Of a DNA stretch of 60,000 nucleotides, positions 3,644 through 59,212 are shown in pieces. Positions within the stretch are counted from its first letter, which is position 1, and each line of letters begins with the position of its first letter. Both the position numbers and the translations under genes were made by a program. This DNA is from Bolinopsis microptera (lineage: Eukaryota; Ctenophora; Tentaculata; Lobata; Bolinopsidae), in the NCBI RefSeq assembly GCF_026151205.1, contig NC_087079.1:1826028-1886027 (forward strand), in the 5' to 3' direction. The notes below the pieces were generated by a model. The model saw nothing but the letters and a program-made list of their open reading frames with translations. It searched no databases and was not told the DNA's origin.

Positions 3644-5023
3644 GATCTTTGGTTTGGCACCATTTTTTTCTATTGTGTTGATGGTTTTGCGTGTTCTGTT
3701 CCAGATGATGTCTAAATCATTCCCCTCCGCTAGAGAAAGCAGATCATCTGCAAAAGCTTGCAGATAACCTGGTATGTCTCTTGCGGTGTAGGCCAGGAGA
3801 TCATCGACTACCAGGTTCCAAAGGAAAGGGGAAAGGATGCCACCTTGGGGGCACCCTCTCCGGATCCGAACCCTTTTCGACTTATCCTTATGATTTAATG
3901 TGATGAATCTGTTAGTTACCATGTTGATAATCCATTGTGCTGTGGCCGGGTCCACTTTCGTGGTCTTGATAGCGTCAGAAATAGCCTTGAAAGAGACATT
4001 ATCAAAAGCTCCCTCTATATCTAGAAAGACTCCTAAGACATATCCCTTCTTAGCTATCCTGCGCTCGATGGTGTGAGTAACTTTATGAAGGGCTGCTTCG
4101 GTTGAACATCCCTTCTTAAAGCCAAATTGTCGTTTGTTGATGTCTTTAGCGATATTAAGGTCGTGTTGCATATGCCACAGTATCACCTTCTCCTGTAGTT
4201 TTAACATCACAGGAGAAAGGGTGATAGTGCGAAATGATTTTGGTTGGTTGTAGTCAGTTTTTCCAGGCTTTGGGAGAAAGATTCCAAGGGATTCTTTCCA
4301 CAAAGTTGGAATGTGTTGGGTTTCATGATTTTTTGTCATAATGGTTCTGGTGATGTCTTTGATGTGTGTCCAAGCTTTCTGTATGATGATAGGTTTGAGG
4401 GTGTCGGGTCCAGCAGCTTTTAACGGATCAAAGGATTTAAGAGCCTCCTCGATTCTGTCTGGGCTGTAGATGGTATTGAGTAAGGTGGTGGTGATTGGTA
4501 GAGGTCCAGGTGGAGGCACTGGCGGGTCAGTGACACTATCCTTGAAGTGGGTTTGTGTCATGACCTCCAGTGTCTCCTCTGCATTTTTGGTGATGTCTCC
4601 GTTTGGTTTGTAAACGGCTTCTAGTGTGTGTTTGTTGTCGTTGCAGGATTTCAGAATCTTGTTCATCCTTCCGGATTCCTTAACAGACTCTGTTTCCTGA
4701 CAAAAAGTTCTCCAGGCATTACGCTGGGAGTTGGATATAAGTCTGTTGTATTGTTTGTTGCTCTCTCTAAGAGCGAGCCACAGGGCATCAGTTTTCTTTT
4801 TTCGGGCTGTAATCAGTTTTTGTCTTATTCCCCTCTGTGCTTCCTCTACTTCTCGAGTTAGCCAGGGGGGTTTGCGGACGGAACTTGAGATGTAAGTAAT
4901 GGGGCATGCCTCCTCGAAGGCTTCCTTAAGTGCAGTATTGATGATGTCTATTTTGTGATCAATTTCGGTCGTAGTGTTGATTTGTGTGTTGTTAAGGTTG
5001 GGGTTATTCGATAGGATCTCATC
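3635..5023 (-). pseudogene. LINE reverse transcriptase part of ORF2
   Basis: The frame is open from the truncation point (about 5023) to a stop at 3635. Upstream of the first Met at 4666 it is already coding: it contains KPPWLTREVEEAQRG, the usual linker between endonuclease and RT. RT motifs are visible in order: GFKKGCSTEAALHK, motif A FLDIEGAFDNVS, motif B GCPQGGILSPFLWN and the catalytic FADD in QAFADDLLSLAEG. The frame then fails in a run of seven A (about 3665-3671), where a one-base shift joins it to the RNase H frame. A dead copy is most likely. The heptamer A AAA AAT would also fit a -1 slippery site, but a shift inside an RT would be unusual. Confidence 0.92.
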
Positions 5024-5790
5024 AAATCTTTACCCCTGTAGTGCTTTTATGTTCCGGGGTAGGTGGGACATGTTTTAGTTTAAAAATGGGTTCCCACTGT
5101 CCCAAACCATCATAAAAATCAAGTTTCGACCTCTCAACCCACTCGGGCCACTCCCAGGGGCCACGCCCATCCCAAAATGACCGAAATCCAGCTAAAATCC
5201 AGACTTTAAAATCTTTACCCCTGTAGTGCTTTTATGTTCCGGGGTAGGTGGGACATGTTTTAGTTTAAAAATGGGTTCCCACTGTCCCAAACCATCATAA
5301 AAATCAAGTTTCGACCTCTCAACCCACTCGGGCCACTCCCAGGGGCCACGCCCATCCCAAAATGACCGAAATCCAGCTAAAATCCAGACTTTAAAATCTT
5401 TACCCCTGTAGTGCTTTTATGTTCCGGGGTAGGTGGGACATGTTTTAGTTTAAAAATGGGTTCCCACTGTCCCAAACCATCATAAAAATCAAGTTTCGAC
5501 CTCTCAACCCACTCGGGCCACTCCCAGGGGCCACGCCCATCCCAAAATGACCGAAATCCAGCTAAAATCCAGACTTTAAAATCTTTACCCCTGTAGTGCT
5601 TTTATGTTCCGGGGTAGGTGGGACATGTTTTAGTTTAAAAATGGGTTCCCACTGTCCCAAACCATCATAAAAATCAAGTTTCGACCTCTCAACCCACTCG
5701 GGCCACTCCCAGGGGCCACGCCCATCCCAAAATGACCGAAATCCAGCTAAAATCCAGACTTTAAAATCTTTACCCCTGTAGTGCTTTTAG
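5024..5790 (+). repeat. 185-bp satellite, left array, second part
   Basis: Continuation of the left array after the LINE: CCCC of the monomer start at 5033, 5218, 5403, 5588 and 5773. The monomers are nearly identical to each other and to those at 1242-1800, and show no higher-order variant pattern. The array ends abruptly within the monomer at TAGTGCTTTTAGTAC near 5790. Confidence 0.97.
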
Positions 5791-12389: not shown

Positions 12390-14720
12390 TCATGTCTGGG
12401 TGGTGATGGGAATGTTGTTAGGGCTCAACACATCATACGCTAAATACTTCCCTTTATTTCTGTCTGCTATTTTGTCCCTGAGCTTCTCCATTTCCTTCAC
12501 CATATCCTTAATATGGCCCTCCTGCTCCAGCGAAACGGCCAAGTTTTCTCCCAGATATCCTTGCCTATTTTCTGCTTTTGTCTCCACATAAAATCGCTCG
12601 ATTGGAGAGAAGTTACTTAGTACCCCTATGATGACCATGGTTGCCAGAGCGACTTCGTATTGTGGGAGACTGTTCATGATACGCTCCATGGTGATCACAT
12701 CGTCCTGTTCTGGTGGTGGCAGTCTGAGACTTGGTGGTGCGTTAACAAGGTGGCCCAGGTATTTGTTGGTCTGGAAGTTTACACCTGTGTGGAAACAAGA
12801 CACATTGAAAATGAGCGCAGTGAGATATTCAACCAACTTTTCTTTAGTTTCGATAGATTCTGGGAAACCTGCTCCACCAAACCCTTCAAAGCCAGGACCT
12901 CTGATTTCTTCCACAAACTTCTGCAATTCGGTATCTTTAGAGACGTCATCTTCGCTCAGATAGGACAAATCCACCATGTTTTTAACGTAGTCTAGTAGGA
13001 TCATCCACAAATCCTCTGAATCATCCCTGAAAAAGAAGTTTGGCAGATCTTTAAGTCCTCTGCTTTCAAAGTCTTTAGGAATGACTAAGTGTTCGTAGTC
13101 CAGCTCTTTACAGCAGTTTACCAGTAGTTGAGGCAGATCATCACCGGAAGACATAAAATTAGCAAAGGCATTTTCTGTTGGACTGATTAGAACTTTCCTT
13201 GCTTGCATATTGATTCCGATGATTCCTTGGAAATGGGGCTGTAGAAGTCTAAGCAAGGGATGAGCACTTGGTAGATTGCGATACATGGACGAGGCAAACA
13301 CCTCATTCATGGCATGTGCTCTTGCGTAGTGAGTTCCAATGCTGTAGATTCCCCAATCAGCACATCTAAAATACATTTTGGCTAGAAGCCAAGACAAGTA
13401 CTTCGGATCAGTCATACTGGTATCGTTCTCGGCTGGATGCCACCAGGTTTGTTTCTCCCCATCATTCTTATTTTCTAAACGTATCAAGACGGGGACAAAA
13501 GATTCGTCCTTAGGACGCGTGTTACTCTGGAAAAGTAGACAGTCGGCTTGAACTACGTACCATGTTTGTGTTGTTCCAGTTATAAATTTGCTCTTCTCAC
13601 CGCCATGGCCGATATCATTCAGTATTTCTGAATACAATATTTCAAAAAGTCGTCCATCTTTGATGACAGCATTAAGATCTTCTCCATCAATTGCATATGT
13701 TGGGAGCATGTCTTTGTCAATTGCCTCCTGCCATGTGTCGGAAAGATTTTCCACTCTCCTTAACCTCGTCGAGTTCGGACCCTGAATGATTTGACGGGCA
13801 AACTCTGCGTCGTGATGGAAAATTTGGCCCACCTTCAGACCGTCCTGAATGTCTTTTTTATTCCATCCTACAGATTCACCCATCTTAGTGAAGGAGTCTG
13901 CATAGTCGGTGAATGATTTGAAGTTGCGTTGAGGAGGCCCGCCGCAACAGCAACTACAAACTTTGTTGAGGATAACAGGACATTTCATCTTATCCTCACC
14001 TGCGTCTCTCGCTCCTTCGAAGGCATCCAGCCAAGCATCTCGGAATTGGAGGAACCTAGGCAGGTTCTCGTACTCACCACCCTTCACATCAATCCAGCTA
14101 GGTATTGGTCCTACTTTATCCGCGTTTTCCCAGGGCATCATTGAATGGGTGATGTTGTGATCTTTCTCCCTGGCTCTCAATATGAAATCTTCCGTTTCAT
14201 TGTGTTTCAGAGTACCGTGTCCTGGCGTTGCATAAAGATATGGAACACATCCTTGCTGGGGAGTGCCATCTTCTTTAGACCCACAGCAGGATCTAGAGGG
14301 GGTGTATGGACTAAGGTAGTTGTGTATGGGGAACCTGTAGGTTTTATTATCCCACATCACTGTTACCTCTCGAATGTAAAGAGGGTCTTTCGTGCAAATG
14401 CAGCTGCATGAACCTCCATCCAACTCAATTTTTAGAAGTTTTGGCTCACCAACTCGTTCCTCTTTCGGTACCCAAAACTCAACGTCCACTGTTCCCTCGC
14501 TGTGAGAAGAGAATTTTTCCTTTATTTTCAGTATTTTCGACTGACAAACCGTTGCTTCAGGATCGTCGTCTTCGTTAGCACCGGGGTTAATGGTGATCTT
14601 TATAGTACCGTCGATCTTTTTTATCGTGTTGGCTTGTGGCAGCTTGCAACCAGTGTGGAGGTACACATGATAGACATCACTACTGACCGCGAATACTGCT
14701 CTACTTGGAGCTGAGCCCAT
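12390..14720 (-). CDS. PLAT/lipoxygenase-family protein with altered iron ligands
   Basis: An intronless 776-residue frame. Residues about 15-140 look like a PLAT (beta-barrel, Ca/membrane-binding) domain; about 200-776 are a lipoxygenase catalytic fold: DPKYLSWLLAKMYFRCADW, LPSAHPLLRLLQPHFQGI, the SCFHTGVNF helix and NAPPSLRLPPP. Lipoxygenases normally hold iron with His-x4-His, a later His and Asn, and the C-terminal Ile. By alignment with 5-lipoxygenase from memory, the first His is Tyr459 (GIYSIGTH), the second is His464, the later pair are His644 and Asn648, and the C-terminal residue is Thr776 instead of Ile. Two of five ligands are therefore changed. An acceptor TATTTACAG ends 3 nt before the ATG. 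Dioxygenase activity on polyunsaturated fatty acids is the family role; this copy may be divergent or inactive. Confidence 0.9.
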   Translation of the reverse strand: MGSAPSRAVFAVSSDVYHVYLHTGCKLPQANTIKKIDGTIKITINPGANEDDDPEATVCQSKILKIKEKFSSHSEGTVDVEFWVPKEERVGEPKLLKIELDGGSCSCICTKDPLYIREVTVMWDNKTYRFPIHNYLSPYTPSRSCCGSKEDGTPQQGCVPYLYATPGHGTLKHNETEDFILRAREKDHNITHSMMPWENADKVGPIPSWIDVKGGEYENLPRFLQFRDAWLDAFEGARDAGEDKMKCPVILNKVCSCCCGGPPQRNFKSFTDYADSFTKMGESVGWNKKDIQDGLKVGQIFHHDAEFARQIIQGPNSTRLRRVENLSDTWQEAIDKDMLPTYAIDGEDLNAVIKDGRLFEILYSEILNDIGHGGEKSKFITGTTQTWYVVQADCLLFQSNTRPKDESFVPVLIRLENKNDGEKQTWWHPAENDTSMTDPKYLSWLLAKMYFRCADWGIYSIGTHYARAHAMNEVFASSMYRNLPSAHPLLRLLQPHFQGIIGINMQARKVLISPTENAFANFMSSGDDLPQLLVNCCKELDYEHLVIPKDFESRGLKDLPNFFFRDDSEDLWMILLDYVKNMVDLSYLSEDDVSKDTELQKFVEEIRGPGFEGFGGAGFPESIETKEKLVEYLTALIFNVSCFHTGVNFQTNKYLGHLVNAPPSLRLPPPEQDDVITMERIMNSLPQYEVALATMVIIGVLSNFSPIERFYVETKAENRQGYLGENLAVSLEQEGHIKDMVKEMEKLRDKIADRNKGKYLAYDVLSPNNIPITTQT

Positions 14721-14735
14721 TATCTGTAAATATTT
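14721..14735 (-). promoter_or_regulatory. 3' splice acceptor just upstream of the lipoxygenase ATG
   Basis: On the minus strand the sequence reads ATATTTACAG then ATA then ATG, so a splice acceptor lies three bases before the start codon. It implies either a 5' UTR intron or a trans-splice site. Confidence 0.5.
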
Positions 14736-15012
14736 GTATGCTTTATAACTGATATTACTAATATTACTAATATTATAGCATTGTTCAACGTGATATATAT
14801 ACCCAGTTGGCAGTTATACAAGTCCCATTGTTGGGAAGTGTAAAAGGCAGTGTATTAAAGCAGACATTGTATCCACTAAAGCAGATAAGAGTATTCACGA
14901 ATTAAAGCATGAATTAAAACTGATACATAACACTTGTAAATATTGATTAACTAAAGCTAGTACTACTAGCTATTGCTATAGTACTACTAGTAGTAGTACT
15001 GTACTAGTAGTT

Positions 15013-16672: not shown

Positions 16673-18513
16673 CTATATCTCTACTTCCTCCTGGATGCTC
16701 CACTTGTCCACGTCCTGATCATAATACTTGTCAAACAGAGTCCCATCCCTGTGTCTGTTTGCGTCCTCAAGCCTTGGTCTCTCCATCGTGCTCGTAAGTG
16801 TCCCATCCCTGTGCCTGTTTGCGTCCTCAAGCCTTGGTCTCTCCATCGTGCTCGTAAGTGTCCCATCCCGGTGTCTAGCTGCGTCCTCTAGCCTTGGTCT
16901 CTCCATCGTGCTCGTAAGTGTGCTCCTCTTCCACTGAACCGGTTCCTCCTGGTACACCATCCCTTCCTCCCCGGGGTGGGCTCCAGCAAAATGGTTTATC
17001 AACACCTCGCTGTCCTCAAATCTTTGACAAGCGATGTTGTCGGTGCTCTGTAGCTCCTTTGACTGAATCCTACCCAACTGATCATGTTCCCTGAGGTGAC
17101 GGAGATTGAGGGTGTTGGTTGCGCTGGTGGAACAGCTAAGGTTGGAATCCTTGTGTTGTGTGCCAATCCGTGAGACCAGGTCTTCTATCTGCAGGGCCCG
17201 CTCGTAGTCCAGGTGGTTCCTGTCAGCTGTTTGTCTGGAGAAGGATTGTGTTGCAGTCAGGTGTGTTTCCATTGTGCCTCCACTGCTGGAGCGGAATTCT
17301 TTTGCTTCTCTTCTCCACTGAGAGATTTCCTCACAAAAACAGCTGCTATCACTGTGATTGCTCCCCCAAAGCATCCTATAGCGCCGCAGATTAGAGAGTT
17401 TCTGTTACAGAAACCACACTTGGCACCTGTACAGGAACCTTCCTCCTCCTCACCTCTTCCATCTTTTCGTGCCTGTGGATCAACAGCATCTTCAGTGGGC
17501 CTTCCTTCATAATCATTGGATTCCACCGGGGAACCATGAGTATCTGCCTCATCTTGTTCAGAAGAATTCTCTTCTTCACGTCTAGGGGTGCAGCTGTGGA
17601 ATGATGTTCCAGTGCAGCTGTTTGTCCCCTCTGTGATCCACTTCCCTCCATCTTGTCGGCAATCTGACCATGTCATGGTGCAGGTCTTCACAACTTTCAC
17701 AAACCGTCTCTTCCCACACCTGCAGTTCCAGTTCCCTGCTGTCTCCGCTGTTACTGGGTTTACAGTGAACCTGTTGGAGTTCTTTCTGCCTTCATTCAGT
17801 CCTGGTCTAGATTCCCACTGCACGATTTCGCTGCATCCTCCTACACACTCCAGATCTAGTGTGTCACCTATCATTGCGTTCATCTGCTGTATTTCTGGCT
17901 GTGGTTCTGGCTGTGGTTCTGGCTGTGGTTCTGGCTGGTTCTTCTATCGTTCCTTCCCTTGGCTGAGTTTTTTGTGGGCACTTTGAGTCGTCCTCTGGCC
18001 GGGTGATGCAGTTCTCATAATCCACACCGGCACAATAGACCTTTATATTAGTGTAAGCCCTGTAACACCACGCTCCAAAACGGAGTCCTCCCGGGTTGCG
18101 GCAGTAGTTGTGGTCACCGATTCCTGAAAAGAAACATTGACTAAAAATCTGTCAAATACGTAGGTACAATGAGGTTTCAATGAAAACAAAACTCACAATA
18201 GGGAAGTTGCTAGATTTAATGAGGCGACTATAATTAAGTATTGGGCAGTAAATTGTGGTGGTCAGTATCAGATTAGTGGTAAAACCAAACAGTTTAACGA
18301 GAACTGTCCTACGACAGAGAACTAACCATTTTCTGCAGCCTCATTTCTTGTTATAAACTCGTCATCACCCCATTTGTTGGCCTGTAGCCAGTTCCAGCAT
18401 CTTTCACCGTTGTGACCACTGTTAGCGCATCCTCTGTAACTTATAACACTATCATACGTGCAGTCTGCGGTCACAGTGGCAAAAAGGCAAATAACAAACA
18501 CAGCTATTACCAT
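16673..18513 (-). pseudogene. Kringle-Ig type I membrane protein, copy A (two frame offsets)
   Basis: Two exons: 18513-18327 (signal peptide ending VTADC and first half of a kringle with YRGC and GERCWNW) and 18123-16673, joined in phase 1. Exon 2 completes the kringle (HNYCRNPGG, AWCYR, VYC), then carries a Pro/Glu/Gln linker, an Ig-like domain (GDTLDLEC ... ETAGNWNC), a WSDC segment reminiscent of a degenerate thrombospondin repeat, a TM helix (SLICGAIGCFGGAITVIAAVF) and a long tail. The tail has three 20-residue repeats (RPRLEDANRHRD) and ends YYDQDVDKWSIQEEVEI. The frame slips by one base between kringle and Ig (near 17935) and slips back just after the TM helix (near 17302). It may be a pseudogene or the offsets may be assembly indels. 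Ligand unknown. Confidence 0.8.
16738..16919 (-). repeat. 60-bp coding tandem repeat in the copy A tail
   Basis: Three copies of a 60-bp unit (CTCCATCGTGCTCGTAAGTG at each unit end) encode three near-identical 20-residue tail repeats. The unit length is a multiple of three, so copy number can change without breaking the frame. Confidence 0.95.
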
Positions 18514-20855
18514 CGCGACAAATCCAAGTAGAGAAAGTGTGGTACAAAAATTTTAAGATTACCCACATCACGAGTCTAGTCAAGCTGCTCACCGTACGAT
18601 TTGAGATTATTTGGAGAGTACATTTTAGTACACTTTAAACCTTCATACCTAGACAATCGCTTGAGAAAATACTCAAAAATTGTCAACTGTGGGTGGGTAA
18701 TCCCGTGATTTGGCATCGTAGTGCTGACTTAATGTTGGAGGCTCAAATTGTGGGCGAATATGTCTGTTGAGTATGAAGTGTTAGAGTCACGCAGTCTTGT
18801 CTTTGTGGGTATGATGATACCAGTTCTGTCACTGTGCAACAGATTCATCAGATAATCACGAGGATTCCAATTCTAAAATAGACTTTAGCGTAATGGAAAA
18901 TCAAGGTTAAGGATGCCATTTTAGGTTGATACTATTGAAAACCCGATATTTCTTCGTCATTTAAAATGTACCATCGGTGATATTATATGTCAACAGTTTC
19001 TTTGGTTGAACTATTTTTGGTTGGATCTAGGAATGCTGGAAGTTTAAAATTCAACAAAACAACAATAAGAACTTCCTTAGGAGCCCAGCCATGAGATATT
19101 CAGCTATTTTCTTGAAAATGGGTCATTTGATATTTATATTTATAAATAAAAGAGCTCGGCATTGGAAAATATTGAAACCAATCCTGGCAGTATAATTATG
19201 GTTTAATTTTACCGCAGTACATCTGCAATATAGTATGGTATTGTATCAGATGCCATCGTGGAGTAAGTGGTCTCCTGCACCATTTCCCCTCGACAATATA
19301 GTAAACTAGTGTAACCCGTCCCTACGGCCGGGACTTTACTATCGCAGTTGAATTGCAAAAATATAACGAGCGCAAAAGTTAAAATTGTGCAAAAGTCTAA
19401 GCTCGCTCAGTTGAAACCGACCGCATTAGAGTAAATTTAATTCTGAGCGCCCATCACGTTATACGTATCCAATAATAATACTTAATAGGCTCCACTGCCA
19501 AATTACCTAATTATGTACAAAGCAGTAATTAGGGGAGCTGTAAATGGGGAGAGAGAGTGAGAGAGAAGGTGGGAGAGAGGGACAAAAAGTGAGTCACTTT
19601 AATATCACATTTGCAGTACAAAACCATCAATTAAACGACTTACCACCGACCGATTTGAAAAACCTTAATCATTTGGCTTCGTCAGAGTTTTGTCGGCACT
19701 ATACCGAAAAAATCAGCCCCATAACTCTTACCGTTTTCTTGATTAAACCGCTCGGAAATTACCCACAGACAGACAGACAGACATTCTGGGATTATTAGTA
19801 TTGATTATATATTAGTATTTCTGTAAGTACAAGAGTACAAACCTAAAATCACAATATTAATATCGTGAAGTACTGTTTCTCTATCAGGGATAACCTGTGA
19901 AATCATATTCGTTGAGGTTTTTTTTTTCAGACTGAATTATTTTCGTAAGTTCTGCTTCTTTTTCCGACTTCTTACAGTTAGTTATATATGAGACAAGAGA
20001 AACGCCATCTTAGTGCGCAAGAAGGATTAGGACTCCTCGGACTACATTAAATCAATTTCTTCTGTAACGTCCTGAACAAATGAAATTACGAATTCAAAAA
20101 TCAAAATACTCTAAAACATCACTGAACTATAAGTTATAACCAGAATATGAAACGTGGCTATTGAGTGCTGTGCAAGTATAAGCCAAGATATTATTATGTC
20201 TTACAAAGCACAAATATAAGCCAAGATATTATGTCTTACAATGTACGAAAGTTTCTTTATGAAACAATGTAGTGATGTGATACGCGCTGCTCAACAAGGC
20301 GAAGTCAAGGCGACTCAATCAGCGTTTGTTAAAATGTTCCCAAGACACAACAAGGCGACTCAATATTCAATAAGCGTTTGGTAACATGTTCCCAAGACAC
20401 AACAAGGCGACTCAATATTCAATAAGCGTTTGGCAACATGTTCCCAAGACACAACACTCAGTCTTCGCTACTTTTCGGGGATATGAATATAATGTCCGGT
20501 AGGAACAATGAAGGAGATCGCATCCAATAGCTGTTATTAATGACAACTTGTGACCCTTATTATAAGATCTTCCCAAAATGGAAAATGAGATAAGAGACTT
20601 TAAGCTCGAAATGCTTTTTTAACAACCTGGTAATGGGCATTATGAATATGAAATATAAGCGGAAGCTGACCGTAGTTCAAAATTTGATGCTCTTGAACCC
20701 AGACAGTTGGAATAATGTTGGACTAACATAGACTGTATTGAGTATTCAGAAGATATGACATGCGTTGGAAATGCTAAAAAGGCAGTTAAAATTCTAACTT
20801 CAATCCATAAAGCAATATTTAAAAAAGTCATGTTGAATCCTCGTAGATCTTCTCT
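18514..20855. other. Intergenic between kringle copies A and B
   Basis: No coding region that I can support. It holds an AG-rich tract (19541-19590), a CAGA microsatellite (19766-19783) and a three-copy tandem repeat of about 60 bp at 20293-20458, each copy with CACAACAAGGCGACTCAAT and AACATGTTCCCAAGACACAAC. Confidence 0.5.
20293..20458. repeat. Three-copy tandem repeat, about 60-bp period
   Basis: CAACAAGGCGACTCAAT and ATGTTCCCAAGACACAAC recur about every 60 bp. The second and third copies are nearly identical; the first is diverged. Confidence 0.9.
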
Positions 20856-22154
20856 TCAAATCTGGTACTCCTCCTCAGAGCCCCATTTATCAACATCCTG
20901 ATCGTAGTACCCATCAAACATTGCCCCTCCTCCAGTCCTCACAGCATCCCCAAACACCTCTACCGGATCAACGTCAAACTCATGGGAACCATATTTGGGA
21001 TATGCAGCATGTGGATCATCATCGAGAGAGACACTATCAAAATGAGAAGCACTACCGAAATGGGAGGCACTACCAAAATGTGAGGCACTACCGAAATGGC
21101 TGATGAACTCCTCTGAGTTGTTGAACATGCTGCTGGGGACATTTTTGTTGACCCTCGTGAATTCCAGTGTTGGAACCGCCACTGTGAGGCCCTGCTCGGT
21201 CCTGTTCCTAAAATGTACAGTGTCATTATCACTGACACTGGGGACCCCACTCAGGGGTTGACTCGGGGGTTGACTCGGGGGTTGTGTTGTTTTTGTGCCC
21301 ATTCTTGTTAGAAGGTCTTCTATTGAGAGCTTTCTTAACCGTTCCACTCCCAATCTAACCCTCTGTGTTCCGGTGAGATGAGCTTGAGAGACGTGGGAGA
21401 TGTGGGATGTCATCGTATCATTGGCTGGAAGATTAGCTTTCAGTGCTTTGGCTTTGCGTGCTTTGGCTTCTTTTTTCCACCTAAGTGAATTTCTTACGAA
21501 AACAGCTGCTAATATCAAAACGGCTGTAACTGCAAATCCAATCATGCCGCAGGGAACTTGGTTGTTCTGGCAAAACGGAGGAGCCCCCTGTCCCTCATCC
21601 TCTTCTTTGTTTTCTTCTGCTGTCGGACATGTTGATTTCACCGGGGCTTCAGATCCCTGACAATCAACCGCACAGTTACTGTCTATAACTGTGCAGTAAA
21701 TCTTGAGTTTGTCGTAGCCTTTGCGGTAGCACCACGGTCCAAACCGGAGTCCTCCCGGGTTACGGCAGTAGTTGTGGTTTCCAATCCCTGAAATAATTTC
21801 CAGAGGTTGAATATTGGGAAACTAATGCGTGAGATTGGTTTCAGCATTTAATTTGTGCTTCTACTTATGTTAAATGTCTAACCCCATAATCTGAAATAAA
21901 AAAACTAGTTTTGAACCCCCCCCCCCCCCCCGCCCCCTCACTATCTTACCATTTCCTGTAGCTGTATCCTCAGTAATGAACTGGCTATCACCCCAGTAGC
22001 AGGTGGTCATCCAGTTAGCACATTCCTCACCATTATGACCGGTATTAACACACCCTCTATAGGCTGTCATGTTGTCCGTCGCGTAGCTGCATTCTGCATT
22101 TACCATCCGAATAGGGTGGACGAAGAATAGTGCAAATATAATGTAGTGGATCAT
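20856..22154 (-). CDS. Kringle type I membrane protein, copy B (no Ig domain)
   Basis: Two exons, 22154-21950 and 21787-20856, phase 1, with acceptor TTATTTCAG. The product is about 378 residues and uninterrupted. A signal peptide is followed by one kringle split across the exons (AECSY, YRGCVN, GEECANW, NYCRNPGG, GPWCYR, IYC and DSNC), then a short acidic linker, a TM helix (CGMIGFAVTAVLILAAVF) with basic stop-transfer residues and a tail of about 230 residues. The tail contains four SHFGSA-type repeats, LSIEDLLTRMG (copy A: IEDLVSRIG) and ends YYDQDVDKWGSEEEYQI, a possible class II PDZ ligand. Kringles are disulphide-linked binding modules, here on the cell surface. The ATG at 22154 is preferred; the frame upstream only offers TTG. 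Confidence 0.85.
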
Positions 22155-22990
22155 TACGAAGATCAAAATGAGGGAAAATTTGAGAAATGTGGATGGAAAG
22201 GTTTACTGTTCTGACATGATCACCATGTAGTTGTACTATGCATTACTAGTTGCTACTCATAGGACATTTTTTTGGGTTTGTAAAACCATTGTAAGGTCAG
22301 TGTCCTGGAATTCCTGGTCGATCACATGGCGGTGATGAAAGGCATTGCCAGTTGGATATCAAATTTCTTTAGACTACACACAATTATTATGATCTTTAGA
22401 TTTAAGTTCCTAAATGCTGAGTACTCAATGACAGATTTAACCTTCAAAATTCCTCTTTACTTTAATTGCAAAATCCTCAAGTTCTACAGTATAATTCAAG
22501 ATACTAATAGATTGATAAGTAGTAAATACACTGATTTTAAAAGCTCAAAATAACACTTTATATATATATATCATTTTTACAGATGATAACTTTTTAATTT
22601 CTATTCATTATACTTGGTGGAATTTGCCTGGGTTATCTCGAACAGAAAAATCTAATGAGATTGTAATCATACGATAAAATCAATATTATATTTATATATA
22701 CTCATTCAACTGAGAAACAGAATATCATACGAATGGTAATACTAGAATTTTGGTGGTTCAACACATTAATTGTGCCAATCTACGACTACTATATTCAGAG
22801 CATATTTACAACTACATGAGATATTGGATTATTTTAGTTTATATTATCCTCCGTCTATATCAGTGATGGTAGTTCAAGCTATAATTAATAGTCTGAGCTT
22901 GAAATAGTCAGGAAGCATAATTTCTACAGGTAATTCAGTTGATATTTTAATCAACTTGGGCTTGGAGACTGGAGGGTAACCATTGCATGA
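22155..22990. other. Intergenic between kringle copies B and C
   Basis: AT-rich sequence with a TATATATA tract near 22560-22570. I see no gene. Confidence 0.5.
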
Positions 22991-24192
22991 TTAGCCAATA
23001 GCCATGCCATTGACTTCTGATAAAATGGTCCGAGACCGTCTCTGTCGAGATCTCTTTACATAAAACACCGCTATTAAAATGATAGACATGAAAAGAAAGC
23101 CAATAAAATATCCTTGTGCAACACCACAAACAACGGCGTGCTTTTCACAGAACCCGACTGAAGAGAAAGTTGACTCAGTTCCTAGTTGCTGTCTTGCTTC
23201 ATCCTCTTCGAGTTTGACCATTGCTGGATTCCCTCTCCTTAGATTTTTACTCCTGGTTCCATTACGAGGATCATCTTGTTTGGTAAGATAATCGCCCACT
23301 TTTCCCGGGTCACAAACCATATCCTTCTTGATCAGCTCACCTGAACAACTGTTATTTCCACTCCTTATCCCCCTCCTTCCGACCAACTTACACTCTGACC
23401 AGATCATGCGACAAACAATAACTCTGGTGATGTACGATCTTCCCCGGCTGCTACACTTCCAATCACCTCCAGACTCCGCCTTCACCGGACTGATTACCAA
23501 GTTGTTCGTGGTGGGTTTCTTCAGTCCAGGCCCAGTCTGCCATAGACCGTCGCTGAACTTGCTCCTGCATTGAAGAGTTAATGTATCGCCTATCATAGCA
23601 TACGTGATAGTGACTTCAGGAGATGGTCTTGGTTGTGGCTTCAATGCAAATTCTTTTGGTGTTGACGCTGAGCGTGATGCTTGTTTCAGGTTCTCTGGGC
23701 ATTTTGGATCATCTTTAGGGTCGATGACGCACTTATTCATAGGACAATATACCTTTTCCTTAATCCTATTCTTATTGTAGCACCACAGACCAGAGCGCTG
23801 TCCTTCTGGGTTTCTGCAATAGTTGTGGTCACCTATTCCTGTAAAGTGAACACAATTACATTTACAATCATATTATTATCTCCTTCAATTTTATCTTAAT
23901 AATTTGAAGATTTCGTAATTATAATTATCTTAAAATCAAAAATAAAACCTCAGCTTATGAAAATGAGCACACAACTAAAAACAATATAACCAACCGTTTT
24001 GTAGAGCCTTATCTTAGCAATGAACTGATCATCACCCCAGTTGTTAGCCAGCAACCAATTAGCACACTCCTCCCCATTGTGGCCCACATTAACACAACCT
24101 CTGTACTCCTCATATTCACTGTACTTCACATCACCTGTACTTACAGTAAATATGTGGCAGATAACTAACAACAAGACAGTAGCACCGTACAT
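22991..24192 (-). pseudogene. Kringle-Ig type I membrane protein, copy C (short tail, one frame offset)
   Basis: Exon 1 is 24192-23995 and exon 2 is 23838-22991, with a clean acceptor CTTTACAG. Exon 2 encodes the second kringle half (DHNYCRNPEG, LWCYN, VYC), a Pro-rich linker, an Ig-like domain (GDTLTLQC ... ESGGDWKC), a WSEC segment, a TM helix (GYFIGFLFMSIILIAVFYV) and only about 22 cytosolic residues, without the YYDQDVDKW motif of copies A and B. Exon 1 is one base short: its 198 nt end in phase 0, while the acceptor and both sister genes use phase 1, and the protein near IAKIRLYKT aligns with the sisters only after a one-base shift. The first kringle Cys is also replaced (GDVKY against ADCTY/AECSY). 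Confidence 0.78.
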
Positions 24193-25250: not shown

Positions 25251-25265
25251 TCGTTCAGGAAGACC
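25251..25265 (+). promoter_or_regulatory. 3' splice acceptor 7 nt before the GEMIN6 ATG
   Basis: CTGTCTCGTTCAG ends at 25258, followed by GAAGACC and ATG at 25266. The pyrimidine tract plus CAG is a good acceptor. No upstream coding exon is visible. Confidence 0.55.
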
Positions 25266-25745
25266 ATGTCAGTCAATGATAGCCAGGAGTTGCTTAACCT
25301 GCTTGGGAAGGAGGTTGAAGTAAGTCTTGTAAACCAAACCACTGTTACTGGCCGAGTCTACACAGTCGACCCTGAAACGCGCAACTTCATTCTCATGGAC
25401 GAAACTTCAACAACATTCATCCCTTTCAGCAACATCAACAAATACACCTTGTTATCAGGACACATGAACACAGTCCAACTATCAGAGCTTAAACAATTAG
25501 ACGAGAAACACTTCCCCTCAACCATCAGTACCATCAGCAAAGAAAACTGTGAGAAGATGAAGGTGAGACTGATCGAACATCTGGAGAAACACAGAGTTCC
25601 CATAGAGCTGAGGGGTGAATCAGAGGTGGTGGTAGCGGGTGTGGTGAGCTGCAGACCACCCTATGATAGGAACTCTTGTTATTCCACTAATGATATAGTG
25701 CTGGGACGGATACAGAATATATTGAGCACTTTTGAGGTGTCTTGA
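25266..25745 (+). CDS. GEMIN6: Gemin6-like SMN-complex subunit
   Basis: A single-exon frame of 159 residues, close to the usual length of Gemin6. The N-terminal half is an Sm/LSm-like fold (LLGKEVEVSL, GRVYTVDPETRNFILMD). The C-terminal half contains LIEHLEKHRVPIELRG and VVVAGVVSCRPPYDRNSC followed by STNDIVLGRIQNIL. These align with the human Gemin6 region LEKNHIPI, VAGVLTIDPPYGPENC and SSNEIILSRVQDLI, recalled from memory. Gemin6 pairs with Gemin7 within the SMN complex, which loads Sm proteins on snRNAs in the cytoplasm. It is the first of three plus-strand genes that each begin right after a splice acceptor. Confidence 0.88.
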   Translation: MSVNDSQELLNLLGKEVEVSLVNQTTVTGRVYTVDPETRNFILMDETSTTFIPFSNINKYTLLSGHMNTVQLSELKQLDEKHFPSTISTISKENCEKMKVRLIEHLEKHRVPIELRGESEVVVAGVVSCRPPYDRNSCYSTNDIVLGRIQNILSTFEVS

Positions 25746-26178: not shown

Positions 26179-26349
26179 TTTATATGAGGGTGCTTATAAA
26201 AATACTGAAAGCCTAAATATTTCAAAATTATGACTCGTTTGCGTTTCTGAATATTTATTCTCGCATTTGCGAGGGTCCCCTCCCGTGGTGTAGAAGTAGG
26301 TCTGAAATTTACTCAATGATCTTGAAAAATCTGCTGATTGAATTTCCCA

Positions 26350-26367
26350 CATATTTTCAGCAAAGAA
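26350..26367 (+). promoter_or_regulatory. 3' splice acceptor 7 nt before the zinc-finger ATG
   Basis: ACATATTTTCAG ends at 26360, followed by CAAAGAA and ATG at 26368. Confidence 0.55.
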
Positions 26368-28095
26368 ATGAATCTAACTCACGTGACGAAACGAAAGCGG
26401 CTGGACATGCAGAAATCACTTTGCAAGAGACACAGATTACACAGACAATTAAATAAGATTTCCGCTTTTGGAAAACAACATCCCCTCTCCACAAGTAACA
26501 GATTTCATTTTCAGTGTCACAAGATATTCTTCAACAGAATTACTCATCTTAAAGAGTGTAAGCGACTTCACTGTGCCGTTAATCGTCAGAAGTCTACCCC
26601 AAAACTTGTGCGTAAAACCAAGCTTTTTACCTGTAGCAAATGTAATTACTTTACCAACAAACAAAATAATCTGTCCCAGCACATCTTGAGGGTTCATGGT
26701 GATAAACTACACACATGTACGAGTTGTGATGCATCTTTCAGGACTTCTTCACATCTTAAACAGCATCTTCTCACACATCAAGAGGTTAAGCCTTTCATTT
26801 GTGATCAATGTGGTTTTGCAACTAAGCGCCAAGGTTTTCTAGATGAACACATGAAAGTTCACACAGAGGTCAGAAAACTTTCTTGTGCACAGTGCGACTA
26901 TTCGTGTAAATATCCGCATCTGTTGAAAGCTCATATTCTGACTCACACTGGTGATAAACCGCTGAAATGCGACAAATGCGACTACTCAACTGCAGATTCC
27001 TCAAATCTAAGAAAACATCGCCTTACCCACACAGACAATATTAACAAACCACATAAATGTTCGCTCTGTGATTACGCTGCTAATAAAGTGCGTGACTTGA
27101 GGAACCATTGTGAGAAAAAGCACAATGGTGATTCCTGTCTCATGTCATCTGGAGATAAGATAAAGATCGTGTCTGGCAAATCACAATCTGCTGACTGTCA
27201 AAACCTGCGGACTGTCATTATAAACCAACTTAAACCATCCTCGAAGCCAACAAACAATTCCTCTAACTTCTCAAATGATGATACCAAAAGTAAGATGAAA
27301 GGTGCCACATCCCTGAATGAAGGTTCCTCCAAAGTTACTGCTGAAATAGTTGAAGAGGTCACATTTAGCTGTAGCCAATGCAGCTACACCACTACTACAA
27401 GAAGGAACTATACTCACCATGTTCGACACAAACACGGAGAACGCTCCTTCAAGTGTGAGCACTGTCCTGCCAGTTTCCCCACAGCAGCTAAGCTTAAAGG
27501 TCACATGATAGCACATCAAGAGGTCAAGTTGTTCACATGTGATCAGTGCGAATTTTCTACTAAATACAAAAGATCTCTGACCGCGCATCTAGCAACACAC
27601 GAACTTCGGAATAAATACTCTTTTAAGTGCGAAAAATGTGAATACTCAACTTACTCAGAGAAATTGTTGAAGAACCATTATTTTCAATGTCACTGTGAGA
27701 AGTCCTACCAATGTGACCAATGTGAGGAGTCTTTCAAAGTGAAGAAGCAGCTGGCAAGCCATGTTTTGATACACACTGAGGTGAAACATCTCGCTTGTAC
27801 AAAGTGCAAATTCACCACTAAATACATCCTCTCCTTTAAAGAACATCAGCTAATGCATGCTGGGGACAAGACCAGGAAATGTAAAGATTGTAAATATGCT
27901 ACTTACTATCACTCGGCATTGTCATATCATCGAAGAACTCACACAAAGGAAAAACCTTTTAAATGTGACATGTGCGATTATGCTGCAGCCACTTCAACAC
28001 AAGTCAGAATTCATAAGAAAAACATGCATTTTATTACTACAGCGACCATGGAATATGGTCATTTGGTAAAGAGGTTTAAGAATCAGAATGTGTAG
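26368..28095 (+). CDS. C2H2 zinc-finger protein, 14 fingers
   Basis: A single uninterrupted frame of 575 residues from the ATG at 26368; the frame reaches a few codons further upstream only through a TTG and across a splice acceptor. After a basic N-terminal stretch there are six C2H2 fingers (for example FICDQCGFATKRQGFLDEH, LKCDKCDYSTADSSNLRKH), a Ser/Lys-rich linker of about 70 residues, then eight more fingers (for example FKCEHCPASFPTAAKLKGH, FKCDMCDYAAATSTQVR). Several linkers are TGDKPLKC or TKEKPFKC, typical of DNA-binding arrays. It is probably a sequence-specific nuclear regulator; its targets cannot be deduced. The first 90 residues hold a weak extra Cys/His pair only. Confidence 0.9.
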   Translation: MNLTHVTKRKRLDMQKSLCKRHRLHRQLNKISAFGKQHPLSTSNRFHFQCHKIFFNRITHLKECKRLHCAVNRQKSTPKLVRKTKLFTCSKCNYFTNKQNNLSQHILRVHGDKLHTCTSCDASFRTSSHLKQHLLTHQEVKPFICDQCGFATKRQGFLDEHMKVHTEVRKLSCAQCDYSCKYPHLLKAHILTHTGDKPLKCDKCDYSTADSSNLRKHRLTHTDNINKPHKCSLCDYAANKVRDLRNHCEKKHNGDSCLMSSGDKIKIVSGKSQSADCQNLRTVIINQLKPSSKPTNNSSNFSNDDTKSKMKGATSLNEGSSKVTAEIVEEVTFSCSQCSYTTTTRRNYTHHVRHKHGERSFKCEHCPASFPTAAKLKGHMIAHQEVKLFTCDQCEFSTKYKRSLTAHLATHELRNKYSFKCEKCEYSTYSEKLLKNHYFQCHCEKSYQCDQCEESFKVKKQLASHVLIHTEVKHLACTKCKFTTKYILSFKEHQLMHAGDKTRKCKDCKYATYYHSALSYHRRTHTKEKPFKCDMCDYAAATSTQVRIHKKNMHFITTATMEYGHLVKRFKNQNV

Positions 28096-31300: not shown

Positions 31301-34300
31301 ACGCCATCATTTGCGATGAAAGAAATATTACTATAAGCTATAAGACATAATATTTACCAAGGAGATAAAATGCCATAAAATACAACATCTGCTCTCTGTC
31401 AGATTTCCTGAACGCCATCATTTGCGATGAAAGAAATATTACTATAGCTATAAGACATAATATCGTCGTTGAAGGTGACCTACCATTTTTCTATTTGAAA
31501 ATTCAATTAATTATTATATATACATAATAATCAATTGAATATAAATAAGAATCAAGCGTTGCTACTGACTAGCAAAATAAACTTGAATTTATAATAATGA
31601 CCACTTTCCGATATTGTTGTACTTTTCCATTTCTCATTTAGTCAAGTTTAGTAAATAATTAATACCCGTTTTTCTATCGTTATCAAAATTGCAACATTTT
31701 TAATAAGTAAAATATTAATCATACTATAATCTTCTCTCTCAATAATAATACTGCACTGCAGTAAAATGTCCATGACGTAGTCATTGCCGTTCATATGATA
31801 TCCATGTCCTGTAAGTGTAACGACCCACAAGACACGTAGTCATTACCGTTCATATGATATCGATTTCCTCTAACGACCCACACTCAGGAGTGGGTACTCG
31901 ATCAGTCTCAACCAGCTCAGGATCATCTTCTCTCACGGAGCTGAGTCTCCGTTTACCTGCCTGGTCTGATACCTGGCGTTCCGTTACTCCGGAATGTCCG
32001 GGGGATGTCTCCCCAGGGGGTGTATCTTCTGCTTGGATATCCTCCTGGAACATCTCCAGTAGAAGCTGATTGTACGACTTGGTGCTCTTCTGTCTTTTGT
32101 ACTTAATCTTTTCGTCGAGGGGTGTTGTGCCGATGTAGATCTTCTTTAAACCTTCTGCGTCCACATCGTTGCTGTTAGTTAAAGAGGAAGATCTGTACCA
32201 GACTGGTTGGTCCTGAGGATGTGACTCTCTTCTTGCGTTCATCCCTCGCTCATCCAAATGTTCGTCTATACCTTCTTGTTTTTTCTTATCCAGCTCTATT
32301 TGCAACATGAACGCCTCAATCACAAATGCAAGGAAGATGTTGAGTATTATGAGTACAATAAGCACATGGAAAGAAAGGAAGTAGAGCCTGCTCGCCTTGG
32401 AGGTGACAGCCACGAAACCACCAACAAGAATGTGCCATTGATTTACTAGGGTCAGCGTCCACAGGACCACGAAACTGTAGAGCACGTTGTTAAATGACAG
32501 GACACAGTAACCCTCCCTGACGAAATCTGTGTGGTTCAAGGCCTCGTTCCCACAGTTGACTGTGTCGTTGAGGATCTTCCCGGCAAACAGCTCCATTCCT
32601 ACTATTGCATAACTGTAGTAGAAAAGAAAGAGGAGGAGAGCGTAGGATCCCATGCTGGGCACGATCTGCATCAGCGTGCTTACAATCAATCTTAGTTGCG
32701 GGATGCTGAGAAGAAGCTTCAACAGCCTCAACACTCGGAGTGTCAAGACCATGTCGAGGAAGACAGCGCTCAACTCTTCGTCCTTGGAGTCGTGCAGACC
32801 CTCCACGTCTACCACCAGCGAGAATATTGTAGCACTCCAAATCACTAGGCAATCATAGCAGTTCCAGGCTGTGCTAGCAAACTTTCTTGGGCCGTACGTA
32901 TACACCTTCAGCGCAATCTCAATGTTGAACAGGACCAGGAATATGTCTTCAAGATAAGTGGGGGCTGATCTTATTGAGAGAACTACTGCATTAACGAAGA
33001 TAAGAGCATCGTATGATAACGTGAAAGCAAAATGTTCCACAGCACATCTTAAGTAGCACGAGGGGCTGCAGTTGTAAATGAAGGGAAATTGTAATTCCAA
33101 CCATGTCTTCTTCGTTATCACTATTATTATTTCAGAAGAAAGGAGGTCAGTGATCTTGAAGAACGCTTGCAGGGAAATTCCTGGGAGTTCTTTATTTGGG
33201 GCCATGTAGTCCCAGTAGAGCGAATGAAGAGCATCTGGACATCCGAATTCTCTGTAGGCCTTAAGCCAAACATCTTTGTGGATATGGTTAGTGTCCGGGT
33301 CTTTAAGCAGAGTAAACGCCTTAAGTAGGTTGCCTTGGATTATGCCTACATCAACTTTTACCTCTTCGAGTAAGTGTAATTTGTAATGTTTGTACACCAC
33401 TGCTAGCAGGATGTTCATGAGGATGAAGGTGGTGATGACTGAGAATGGCATGAAGAAAAAGAAGAACGCTGTTCGTTCCGGAATGCTGGTAGAGATACAT
33501 CCGGACTGTTTGCTGTCGTCATGAGAACGTAAAGATTCCAGTAGGAGTCCAGGAAGTTGTCGAGGTAAGGGTCTCCGTGGGGGTCTAGCAGGGTCCGTCT
33601 TTCAAAGAACTTGGTGGCCATCATAGCAAAGATAGCTATGAAAAGGAAGATTAACACAAGAACACTGATAACGTCAACAACAGTCTTCTTGATGTTTCTC
33701 AGAAGTTTTCTCAGGTTTCGGTTATCTGAGAAGTTGATAATGAGGAGAGGCCTCAAAACTCTGCTAACTCTGATCACTTCCCTTCCTTCCCCCACTTTAT
33801 AAACAAACCATACCACCGTGTCAACGAGCATCACAGCAATGCTTACAATAATCACACAGTTCTTTATGTCAGACCAGAAGTCCCCAGGATGCAAGCACAA
33901 ACGTAGGTGAAGGACCCTACAAGAACATGCGATCAGACAGATGAGCTCCAGTGCTAACACTGCCTGCCAATGAACCTGGAGGACCTCAACTGCTGGTGTC
34001 TCAACTAGGGCTAGGCCCAGGAGTAGAGCAGGGGAATATGACGAACAAGTATCTGATTGCTTTGTTCTGGTAAGTTTGATATAAAGAAAGTTTGTCAGGT
34101 CGAAAGGGGACGTTTCTGAAGTGAAGCGCGTCTTCAACGTACATTGCTGCAATCGTTAAGTCTAGTTCAGACTTCCAATTAGAGCTAGAGGCTGATCTTT
34201 TCCCGTTTGGAATCGCTCTGAACTCCTCGTCTGAGCTTGTAGATAGATTTGCAAACATGGGGTTACTGAACCCTGCTGTTTCGTCCGATGATTGTATTTG

Positions 34301-37300
34301 TGATTCATTTTCCAGAGGATCGTCCTGGAACTGAAGACTTACCATAGCTTCATCGGAGCCAAAATACTGAAAAATAGCGTGAATCATGCGACTCATAGGA
34401 TAAGAATCAAGAATTGAATAGACTGACGAAAAAAGATCTAACTAACTTCTAACTTATCATGGATTAAGGTACTAAAAATACTTTTCACTACTCTTTTAAT
34501 TTGGTGGATTCGTGTAGTGTTATTGAGTCTCATGATTTGATGTTTCTTTCATTCAAATTTCTGATTGTTTCTGAATAGACTCAGTGAAGACAGATTATAA
34601 TTGAAATACATTGCTGAATAACGTATCGAAATTTCTACGTTGTACTCATATTCTGAAATAGTGTTAATTAAATAGAGTCCAGGTTTCTCGACAATTTTGA
34701 TGGAGAGCCCACCATGTCTGACAGTTACCGGGGTAATCACAGGGCTCCAATGCTCTATCTTACAGTGGTCATGATCTATCCAATAGTGATAATGACCACA
34801 GCCCCCTACGAGGAAGATATGTCTGACAGCATCTAACAGACTCCAGACCTCTTGACAAGAAATCCTGTACAAGTACAACATCAAACTGCAGAACATGCGC
34901 AGCTTTAACCGATGGAGAATGCACCACAACTAACACCGTCCACCACATCACCTGTGAAGTAGACAATTGCACCGAGAACTATGGTGGCGAGACCTACAGA
35001 GTACAGACCACTCAAGTGCAGGTTTGACTTTGAAGAACACTACCGTAGTGCGGCAAACCCAACAGTCATCCTCAGCACATAGGTCCTCCAAAGCTAAAAC
35101 TTCAAATCGTGGATAGAGGAACATCACTCATCAAGAGAAAAATTAAAGAAGCCCGATTTTTAGTTGAAAAGAAACCAACACTCAACGACAAAACAGGGTT
35201 GAACAATCTAACACAGTTTTTAATTGAGTGACGTGTAAATAGTAATATTATCCTTTAAATTTCACCCCTCTGACTTTCAAACAGAGGGGTTTATTCAGAA
35301 ACTATTCAGAAACAATTAGAATTTATTTCCACTAGAATCTGTCTTCACTGAGTCTATCCAGAAGCAATCAGAAATTTGAATGAAAGAAACTCTTTTAATT
35401 GTTTTATGACAGGTCACATACTTTGACCCTTACTTAAAGTCCTATCATTAATTGGAAATTAACAGTTGCCGGTGTAAATTTTTATGAAGATTTGTTATTC
35501 GCGGACTAGATCTCTGATTGGAAATAATAGCTGACGCTACAGTTATCGGTAAATTAAAATTAAAAATCAAAATTACTCTTTTTCACAAACAATTCATCAG
35601 TAAATATTATCGAGAAGCAAAGCAACTTCACAAAGATTGTGTAGCGGACAAGCATTTTATCCGAGATAAAAGGGTGTTCTGTTACCTCTCTGGCCAACAT
35701 AGGACTGCCTTTGAAGATTCTGAAACTTGATATTACTTTTCTGTCAACTGCACGAAACTGTAGTTGGAACAAAATAAAGATGGAATTTTAACTCTATTCT
35801 ACAGCGTTTGAAGTGAACACTTTCACTGTCGATTAGCGTTACATTTAGATTGAAACTTGTTCGGCTCAAAACCGTAGACAATGTTGAATTTAATATGACT
35901 GCCACAATCAGCTCAACACTTAACGCTACACAAGTTTAGTTTAGGGTTTTTCACGAAGAAAATATGTGAAATGTATAGATCGAAACTTGGATATTATAGT
36001 GGTGATAGAGTGGCGTTTTATCAATATCTGGTATTAATTTTATATTAAGCAGACTCGACCGGTAATACTATCTAGAAACAGATAAATTAAATCTATAATT
36101 TTAAAAAGGAATAATATTTCAAATATTAATTTTAAAAAGGAATAATATTTCAAATATTAATTCAAATAAAGCCCAGGGACCAGATGGCATACACGGTAAA
36201 ATTCTCAAAAATTGTTCCGTAGGTTTAGCTTACCCTCTAACATGCATTTTTCGTGGATCTTACAACAGCGGCTACATTCCACAAGAATGGAAACTTGCAA
36301 ATGTTGTCCCAATATTTAAGAAAGGTAAGAAAAGTGAGGTTGAAAACTATAGACCAATATCCCTTACTTGTTTAGTCATGAAAGTTTTTGAGCGCATTGT
36401 TAAACGTAAACTGCTTTCTTTGACAAGTACCCTTCTTGATCCCAGGCAGCATGGTTTTCTAGAGCACAAGTCATGCACAACCAATATGGTTGACTTTTGT
36501 GATAGCCTGGCATTGTCTCTTAACGAAAACATTATCAATCATGTTGTGTATTTTGATTTTGCTAAGGCATTTGATTCTGTAAATCATGATATCCTTCTTC
36601 ATAAGCTAAAGACCTTATATAACATTGATGGTACACTTCTCAAATTTCTTACCAATTACCTTCAAGGCCGTTACCAAAGAGTGGTTATTGGTAATGAGAT
36701 GTCATCTACCCTCTCAGTTAATTCTGGTGTCCCCCAGGGCTCTATTCTTGGTCCCTTACTTTTTGTATTGTTTATCAATGATATTCCTCTTGGCCTTTCG
36801 GATAATACTGATATTGTTTTGTATGCCGATGATACAAAAATCTGGCGTAAAATACATTCATCTTCTGATAATACTAATTTACAAATGGATATAGACTATC
36901 TCTCTGACTGGGCACTAAGAAACAAAATGCGATTCCATCCAGCAAAATGTAAAGTGCTTATTGTTTCAGGAAAACCATCTTTATCTCCTCCATTCGCATA
37001 CAATCTTGATGGCTCTCCTCTTGTGTATGTAGAGTTAGAAAAAGATCTTGGAGTCGATGTTACTCCTAAGCTAAGTTGGAATAGTCAGTGCGACAGAATT
37101 TATACTAAGGCCTGCCAACAACTTGGTATGGTCAGAAGAGATGGCCATATTGTCATTGATCAGAAACGTCGCCGGGCGCTTTACCTCTCCCTGGTTCGTA
37201 GCCAATTCGAAAATTGTTCCATAATCTGGCGCCCTTGTAATAAATCACTTAGTGATAAATTAGAAAGTCTCCAAAAGAGAGCTATTAAATGGATTCTGTC

Positions 37301-55296: not shown

Positions 55297-55870
55297 GTTA
55301 GGGACAATTAACATTAATACAGGACCATCTGGGAAAAAATTTGCGACAAGCTGATTTTTACAGGAATGTGTTGCCCATAGTGTCAGGAACCACCCCAAAG
55401 AGTTTTGAATCTGGATCTGTTGAGCAAAAAAAGTTACAGCCAATTTTCTTCAGGCGCGTATGTCAGCCTGAGGACCACACTTGAAAAACTCGTAACTATC
55501 GTAATAAAGACCCCCAGGAGCACCATAGGGGGTGCAAAATGACCGCAATAGTGACATTATGTGGGACGAATCAGTGTTTTAGGGTCGTCAGATCTTTACT
55601 TATTGAGATAATTTCATTTTTATAGGCTAACCTCTCAAAAATTTACTAAAATTTTGAAATTTTACTTAAATTTGGAAATTTAGCAAAATTGTTGTAAAAT
55701 TAAAACATTGTCTAGTTATCAGTATTCAAATTCTAAAATTTACTTTCAATCGTCAATTGATCCTTATATTAGTATAGTAAATAATATACATATCACATCA
55801 AATTCTGTAAAAAAAGGTCCTGAATTATTAGCATGGTGTCTTTGATTGGCAACTATTAGGTCACTTCTGG

Positions 55871-58644: not shown

Positions 58645-59212
58645 CCAGAAGTGACCTAATAGTTGCCAATCAAAGACACCATGCTAATAATTCAGGACCT
58701 TTTTTTACAGAATTTGATGTGATATGTATATTATTTACTATACTAATATAAGGATCAATTGACGATTGAAAGTAAATTTTAGAATTTGAATACTGATAAC
58801 TAGACAATGTTTTAATTTTACAACAATTTTGCTAAATTTCCAAATTTAAGTAAAATTTCAAAATTTTAGTAAATTTTTGAGAGGTTAGCCTATAAAAATG
58901 AAATTATCTCAATAAGTAAAGATCTGACGACCCTAAAACACTGATTCGCCCCACATAATGTCACTATTGCGGTCATTTTGCACCCCCTATAATGCTCCTG
59001 GGGGTCTTTATTACGATAGTTACGAGTTTTTCAAGTGTGGTCCTCAGGCTGACATACGCGTCTGAAGAAAATTGGCTGTAACTTTTTTTGCTCAACAGAT
59101 CCAGATTCAAAACTCTTTGGGGTGGTTTCCGACACTATGGACAACACATTCCTGTAAAAATCAGCTTGTCGCAAATTTTTTCCCAGATATTTTGCATTAT
59201 TCCCTAACTATT

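Follow-up and report, generated by a model that had tools for sequence, protein, structure and literature searches.

Three paralogous kringle genes in one interval

The interval from 16673 to 24192 of the window (the whole 60,000-nucleotide stretch of Bolinopsis microptera DNA analyzed here) holds three paralogous two-exon genes on the minus strand. They are read leftwards, first C, then B, and finally A, and the interval is bounded by the stop codon of gene A (16673) and the start codon of gene C (24192). Gene C (24192-22991; exons 24192-23991 and 23838-22991) encodes 349 residues, gene B (22154-20856; exons 22154-21950 and 21787-20856) encodes 378 residues, and gene A extends from 18513 to 16673 (exons 18513-18327 and 18123-16673). 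Exon 1 has the same content in each gene, namely the start codon, a hydrophobic leader, and the first half of a kringle. Exon 2 of gene C is an open frame with the second half of the kringle, a linker, an Ig-like domain, a Cys-rich stretch, a transmembrane (TM) segment, a short tail, and the stop codon; that of gene B, also open, has the kringle second half, a linker without Ig, a TM segment, a long tail, and the stop; and that of gene A has the kringle second half, a linker, an Ig-like domain, a TM segment, a long tail, and the stop, with two frame changes (see below). A phase-1 GT..AG intron splits the kringle just before (D/N)HNYCRNP in all three genes. For the intron donor of gene C, eight positions were tried, of which two kept the frame and only one of these started with GT (GTTATA). 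The three neighboring kringle paralogs and the phase-1 intron at a common place, both described in an initial annotation of this DNA, were thus confirmed. Since everything 3' of the half-kringle lies in one exon, the presence or absence of the Ig-like domain is not explicable by shuffling of present-day exons.

Several other genes and elements were recognized elsewhere in the window. Pfam matches identified a lipoxygenase (12390-14813), a Gemin6-like protein (25263-25745), a C2H2 zinc-finger protein (26338-28095), an ion-transport channel (31850-33601) that we take to be NALCN-like, and a TRAF-type zinc finger (52636-52977). An inverted repeat (55327-56423 and 58092-59188), with arms of 1,097 nt that are 99% complementary and lie 1,668 nt apart, carries the same 141-residue open frame in each arm, and two frames between or across the arms (56503-58157) had no Pfam match; the whole structure (55327-59188) looks like a mobile element or an inverted duplication. 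The frame at 2043-3716 had an RNase H match in Pfam, frames 3635-5029 and 36105-37721 appeared reverse transcriptase-like by eye, and the stretches 2043-5029 and 36105-37721 are likely non-LTR retroelements. An ionotropic glutamate receptor frame (L004) from the genome had the iGluR ML032222a, of Mnemiopsis leidyi, as its best relative of solved structure (407.5 bits, compared with 243.4 for the top entry of any other name); the two sequences align closely without being identical, which indicates a ctenophore other than M. leidyi.

The reading frame of gene A

The initial annotation missed two frame changes in exon 2 of gene A, of which one falls at about 17.87-17.95 kb and the other near 17.32 kb (placed by alignment with gene B). 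The frames between and beyond these breaks are open for 228 and 243 codons. Introns were considered at both breaks and rejected: of GT..AG pairs with a suitable length class, the zone 17880-17960 offers none and the zone 17300-17360 eight, the longest of which, at 35 nt, is too short and lies in a stretch that is coding in gene B. No second haplotype copy of gene A was found among the genome search matches. The B. microptera assembly described in the consulted part of PMC10232365 is a wtdbg assembly of PacBio reads that was then polished with Illumina data, and, if this is the source of the present sequence, leftover indels are possible in gene A. The breaks may reflect either an assembly error or the recent death of the gene; with its frame broken twice, gene A may be dead, and gene B would then be the sole intact carrier of the long tail.

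A divergent kringle lacking the plasminogen-type acidic pair

The Pfam kringle profile matched the spliced proteins of all three genes with 39.8 (B), 43.0 (C), and 36.0 bits (A), above its gathering score of 34.3, which bears out the kringle previously assigned to each of them; in gene C, the domain covers residues 28-104 of the spliced protein. None of the three follows the canonical six-cysteine kringle pattern. All have an extra Cys directly after YRG, a feature seen in none of the 27 first-half motifs from the remaining kringle loci fetched from the genome (with one gene counted twice, in the overlapping loci L025 and L039), and the kringle of gene C is without the first canonical Cys in the alignment. 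At the NPDxD site, where plasminogen kringles 1, 4, and 5 have DND, DAD, and DGD, gene C has EGQ (NPEGQ), and genes A and B have GGL. The aspartates of this site in plasminogen are presumably Asp55 and Asp57. In kringle 1, two aspartates bind the lysine amine (according to the part of PMC9736318 consulted), and this acidic pair of plasminogen-type lysine-binding kringles is absent from A, B, and C.

The division of the kringle between exons is not peculiar to the trio, and the intron place is common in the genome: among 150 of the 154 kringle matches, which were those listed, 28 covered only the second half (model start at 31 or later and end at 79) and 15 covered only the first half (model end at 44 or earlier).

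A predicted Ig-like domain in genes A and C

The initial annotation also proposed an optional Ig-like domain. Ig profiles did match genes C and A, below the Pfam cut-offs in both cases (C, 14.3 bits against 21.8 for ig, E 0.053; A, 14.6 bits against 27 for Ig_2, E 0.039), and no such domain was present in gene B. The approximate extent of the domain is 23405..23620 in gene C (residues 8-79 of the AlphaFold2 model) and 17680..17895 in gene A, both on the minus strand, with 39-40% identity between A and C over the modeled stretch. The models, which were built from two sequences only, had mean pLDDT values of 73.3 down to 59.9 for gene C and, with five unequal models, 75.3 down to 47.3 for gene A. 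They matched mostly Ig folds, and LAG3 came first in both Foldseek lists (C, E 3.0e-4; A, E 1.1e-4). A second fold search with the two-sequence model of gene C gave a best Z of 8.3 (CD45) and a next of 7.5, which the tool rates as middling, with the warning that Z below 8 may reflect merely a common arrangement. Taken together, the predicted fold suggests that A and C carry an Ig-like domain that stays sub-threshold by profile. In gene C, the domain is followed by a Cys-rich stretch (23291..23404, minus strand; WSxC...NSCxG...C) that is common to gene A and was modeled with low confidence.

Predicted transmembrane segments and putative cytoplasmic tails

Leaders and TM segments were called from Kyte-Doolittle hydropathy alone, with a TM segment defined as a 19-mer above 2.2. 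By this measure, the signal peptide and TM segment of the initial annotation correspond in each gene to a hydrophobic N-terminus and a later hydrophobic 19-mer, located on the minus strand at 23057..23113 in gene C (hydropathy 2.35), 21495..21551 in gene B (2.58), and 17338..17394 in gene A (2.26). The 20 residues after the gene B segment include 9 K/R versus 1 D/E, and this basic excess fits the expected cytoplasmic side. The tails that follow are variable, as had been noted: gene C has a short, basic tail of 21 residues (22991..23056 including the stop), gene B has one of 212 residues (20859..21494), and gene A has one of 214 residues counted from WRREAKE (16673..17317 including the stop), all on the minus strand.

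The tails of A and B are related, with 62 identical positions in an alignment over 184 codons; chance likeness was rejected, as the alignment scored 131 and none of 500 shuffles exceeded 51. Both end in FDxYYDQDVDKWxxxEExxI and also have IEDLxxRxGT and SExxIxHF in common. The shared motifs reported earlier are therefore real, except that gene B ends in YQI rather than EI. Repeats were also observed in both tails, a 60-bp tandem repeat of three copies (20-residue repeats) at 16740..16921 in gene A (minus strand) and in-frame tandem units of 18 bp at 21026-21099 in gene B, which differ in unit yet sit at similar places in otherwise related tails.

The YYDQDVDKW peptide is encoded at 20883..20909 in gene B and 16700..16726 in gene A (minus strand). 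A whole-genome search with the DNA pattern coding for it, allowing up to two mismatches, found exactly these two places and none for the reversed control, so that A and B are the only genes in the genome found to end in this way. Across its nine codons, A and B differ by 6 synonymous and 0 replacement changes, and the last 20-codon window of the tail had the lowest pN (0.19) among 17 windows, with the remaining tail mostly drifting. The lack of replacements despite saturated synonymous sites (see below) points to an old peptide under selection.

The tyrosine pair of this end lies in YYDQ, which might be read as a STAT-type YxxQ. These tyrosines are the sole basis of a possible SH2-type reading of the peptide. 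The C-terminal residues of A (VEI) and B (YQI) fit the class II PDZ ligand form, a hydrophobic-X-hydrophobic C-terminus (from the consulted part of PMC2891790), and those of C (AIG) do not; class II forms are short and common. The earlier suggestion that the tail end is a docking motif appears plausible in view of the conserved terminal peptide and the class II PDZ-type C-termini. Elsewhere in the tails, few domains could be recognized. The gene B tail had no sequence match to a solved structure at E up to 10, and Pfam returned only sub-cut-off matches for the gene A tail; a match of the latter to 5j45 (GH13992p; E 0.02) lies in the repeat region, is absent in B, and was taken as chance.

Age, selection, and family size

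In all five segment comparisons between copies, synonymous sites were saturated (pS 0.76-0.81), and no finite dS could be computed. Nonsynonymous differences were fewer in all five (pN 0.32-0.35 in the kringle, 0.42 from Ig to TM, and 0.47 in the tail), values that are averages over pairs and compatible with diversifying selection at a few sites. Saturated synonymous sites together with lower pN indicate old copies under overall constraint, and at the sequence level the kringle and the tail end are kept by selection.

The genome (264.65 Mb in 232 contigs, with the trio on contig C8) was searched with protein queries from both exons of B, from exon 2 of C, and from the Ig-TM and tail parts of A. 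No fourth member was found in the genome stretches searched; besides A, B, and C, the matches were kringle halves or at chance level (e.g., E 0.68, 0.88, 7.9, and 8.6), and membership of the trio in a larger family was therefore rejected. Within the window, tblastn (word size 2) gave no relic copy among rows above 24 bits; weak matches occurred at three unrelated sites. By parsimony, the simplest history is an A-like ancestor with loss of the Ig-like domain in B and of the tail in C; alternatively, gene A may have arisen by recombination between B-like and C-like copies.

Other kringle loci in the genome

For comparison with the trio, 32 other kringle loci, a subset of those in the genome, were selected from the search matches and fetched. 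A second-half kringle ORF was found by motif in 24 of them (all except L017, L022, L023, L024, L026, L027, L031, and L033), and none of these 24 had a hydrophobic 19-mer after the kringle in the same ORF. Three loci on contig C3, near 21.007 Mb (L037), 21.141 Mb (L038), and 21.043 Mb (L039, which includes L025), are 96-97% identical in long DNA blocks, and in each a single frame encodes a leader and a kringle together with TSP1 repeats and numerous Ig-like domains. The TSP1 stretches number four in L037 and one in L039 by Pfam, and five in L038 by eye. These loci resemble the trio in joining a leader to kringle and Ig domains within a single protein; they differ in their TSP1 repeats, many Ig domains, kringle without intron split, and lack of a shared tail. 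They look like recently duplicated loci that vary in their number of TSP1 repeats, and a likelier recognition-receptor family than the trio. A separate locus, L030 (C2:12050266-12052593), contains three kringle frames at a spacing of about 1,040 bp, identical in the parts displayed, i.e., a short tandem single-kringle array.

Comparison with known kringle membrane proteins

Among known proteins, gene B is most readily compared with PIK3IP1 (TrIP), with which it shares one extracellular kringle, one TM segment, and a tail without an enzyme domain; to our knowledge, PIK3IP1 has no Ig domain. PIK3IP1 is a vertebrate single-kringle transmembrane inhibitor of PI3K whose tail resembles the p85 inter-SH2 region (PMC7520711, part consulted). 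Gene B showed no p85-type Pfam match, in addition to the absent structure matches of its tail, although a weak similarity could escape such searches.

Genes A and C resemble ROR and MuSK in having a kringle and an Ig domain in one single-pass protein, and the ROR1/ROR2 kringles were among the solved relatives of the gene C kringle. ROR and MuSK, however, have frizzled and kinase domains, with the Ig domain outermost and the kringle beside the membrane, whereas the kringle is outermost in the trio, and no frizzled or tyrosine kinase Pfam match was found in the scanned pieces of A or in B and C. A further comparison is offered by PMEL/GPNMB/TMEM130, type I proteins that combine an Ig-like PKD domain with a kringle-like one, the latter divided between two exons in 30 of the 31 genes; TMEM130 has been reported from a ctenophore (both from the consulted part of PMC8273697). 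The trio differs from this family in that no PKD match was found in A, B, or C and that a profile-true kringle precedes the Ig-like domain. Genes A and C are thus without counterpart in the families considered here (ROR/MuSK and PMEL/GPNMB/TMEM130).

A kringle with one Ig domain and a TM segment, without kinase or protease, is not an architecture familiar to us, and the open-access literature searched yielded neither a description of it nor any paper about kringle receptors in ctenophores. The word "kringle" had 0 occurrences in the main text, as far as it was available to us, of a study of immune domains in three ctenophores (PMC11797021). The unfamiliarity of the architecture, stressed in the initial annotation, therefore held in the literature searched, but the three C3 loci show that this genome joins kringle and Ig domains elsewhere as well.

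A proposed receptor system and its alternatives

The anatomy of the genes, their domains, the conserved tail end, and the lack of further members found are established at the level of sequence, and on this basis we propose a function for the trio. The three old tandem paralogs would be expressed as single-pass type I membrane proteins, with an ectodomain of one divergent kringle to which an Ig-like domain and a Cys-rich stretch are added in A and C. The kringle ectodomain may bind a protein ligand via a surface that is distinct from the lysine pocket of plasminogen-type kringles. In A and B, the long tails, with few recognizable domains and mostly free to drift, would end in the constrained peptide FDxYYDQDVDKWxxxEExxI-COOH, and this end might recruit one shared cytoplasmic partner, which could be a class II PDZ protein that binds the last residues, an SH2-type protein that reads the two tyrosines, or both. 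The proteins would then be receptors or co-receptors. As gene C keeps the Ig-bearing ectodomain without the A/B-type tail, its product would serve as a decoy or as the subunit of a partner pair. We hold the proposal as a whole (old tandem type I receptors with a lysine-pocket-independent kringle ectodomain, a shared tail-end partner, and a tail-less C) tentatively, at somewhat below an even chance. A bolder version, in which this is a ctenophore-specific receptor system with a new docking peptide and one dedicated adaptor, and with B as a short activating form, A as an Ig-bearing form, and C as a tail-less decoy or partner, is in our judgment rather unlikely to be correct in full.

Several other explanations have to be weighed against this proposal. 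The cluster may be decaying, with B working, the tail of C lost, and A a pseudogene, which we regard as rather unlikely. The two frame changes of gene A, for which no intron of credible size was found (see above), and the 21-residue tail of gene C would fit such decay. Against it, gene A retains frames of 228 and 243 open codons and a tail end with 0 replacements versus B in nine codons, so that any loss would be recent, and leftover indels of the assembly could have produced the breaks if the consulted part of PMC10232365 describes the source. The proteins might also serve adhesion or matrix anchoring, with kringle and Ig binding the matrix or a neighboring cell and the tail anchoring the cytoskeleton without signaling. 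This appears unlikely to us: the Ig fold matches do include nectin-like molecules, NEGR1, and neurofascin, and a basic stretch directly follows the TM segment of gene B, but the ectodomains are small for adhesion, and Ig folds with a wide range of functions give equally good matches, which makes the fold match uninformative on function.

The initial annotation had likened the trio to recognition-receptor families, and we consider improbable a set of recognition or immune receptors in which diversifying selection acts on copies that gain or lose domains, comparable to the families used by invertebrates for allorecognition or pathogen recognition. The Ig-like domain and the tail are each present or absent among the copies, and the tail repeats differ (60 bp in A and 18 bp in B), as might be expected of such receptors. 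The likeness was nevertheless not borne out, since three members rather than a large array were found in the genome, synonymous sites are saturated (pS 0.76-0.81), and pN (0.32-0.47) lies below pS in 5 of 5 comparisons; moreover, the C3 kringle-TSP1-Ig loci, 96-97% identical in long DNA blocks, look more like a family of this kind. The sequence data thus argue against a young, expanding recognition family.

If the trio works as the receptors or co-receptors proposed above, the tail end, unchanged across a synonymous-saturated distance, would provide a short, testable bait peptide for a signaling or scaffold partner. The trio and the C3 loci together also suggest that one ctenophore genome holds kringle-with-Ig combinations of two different makes.
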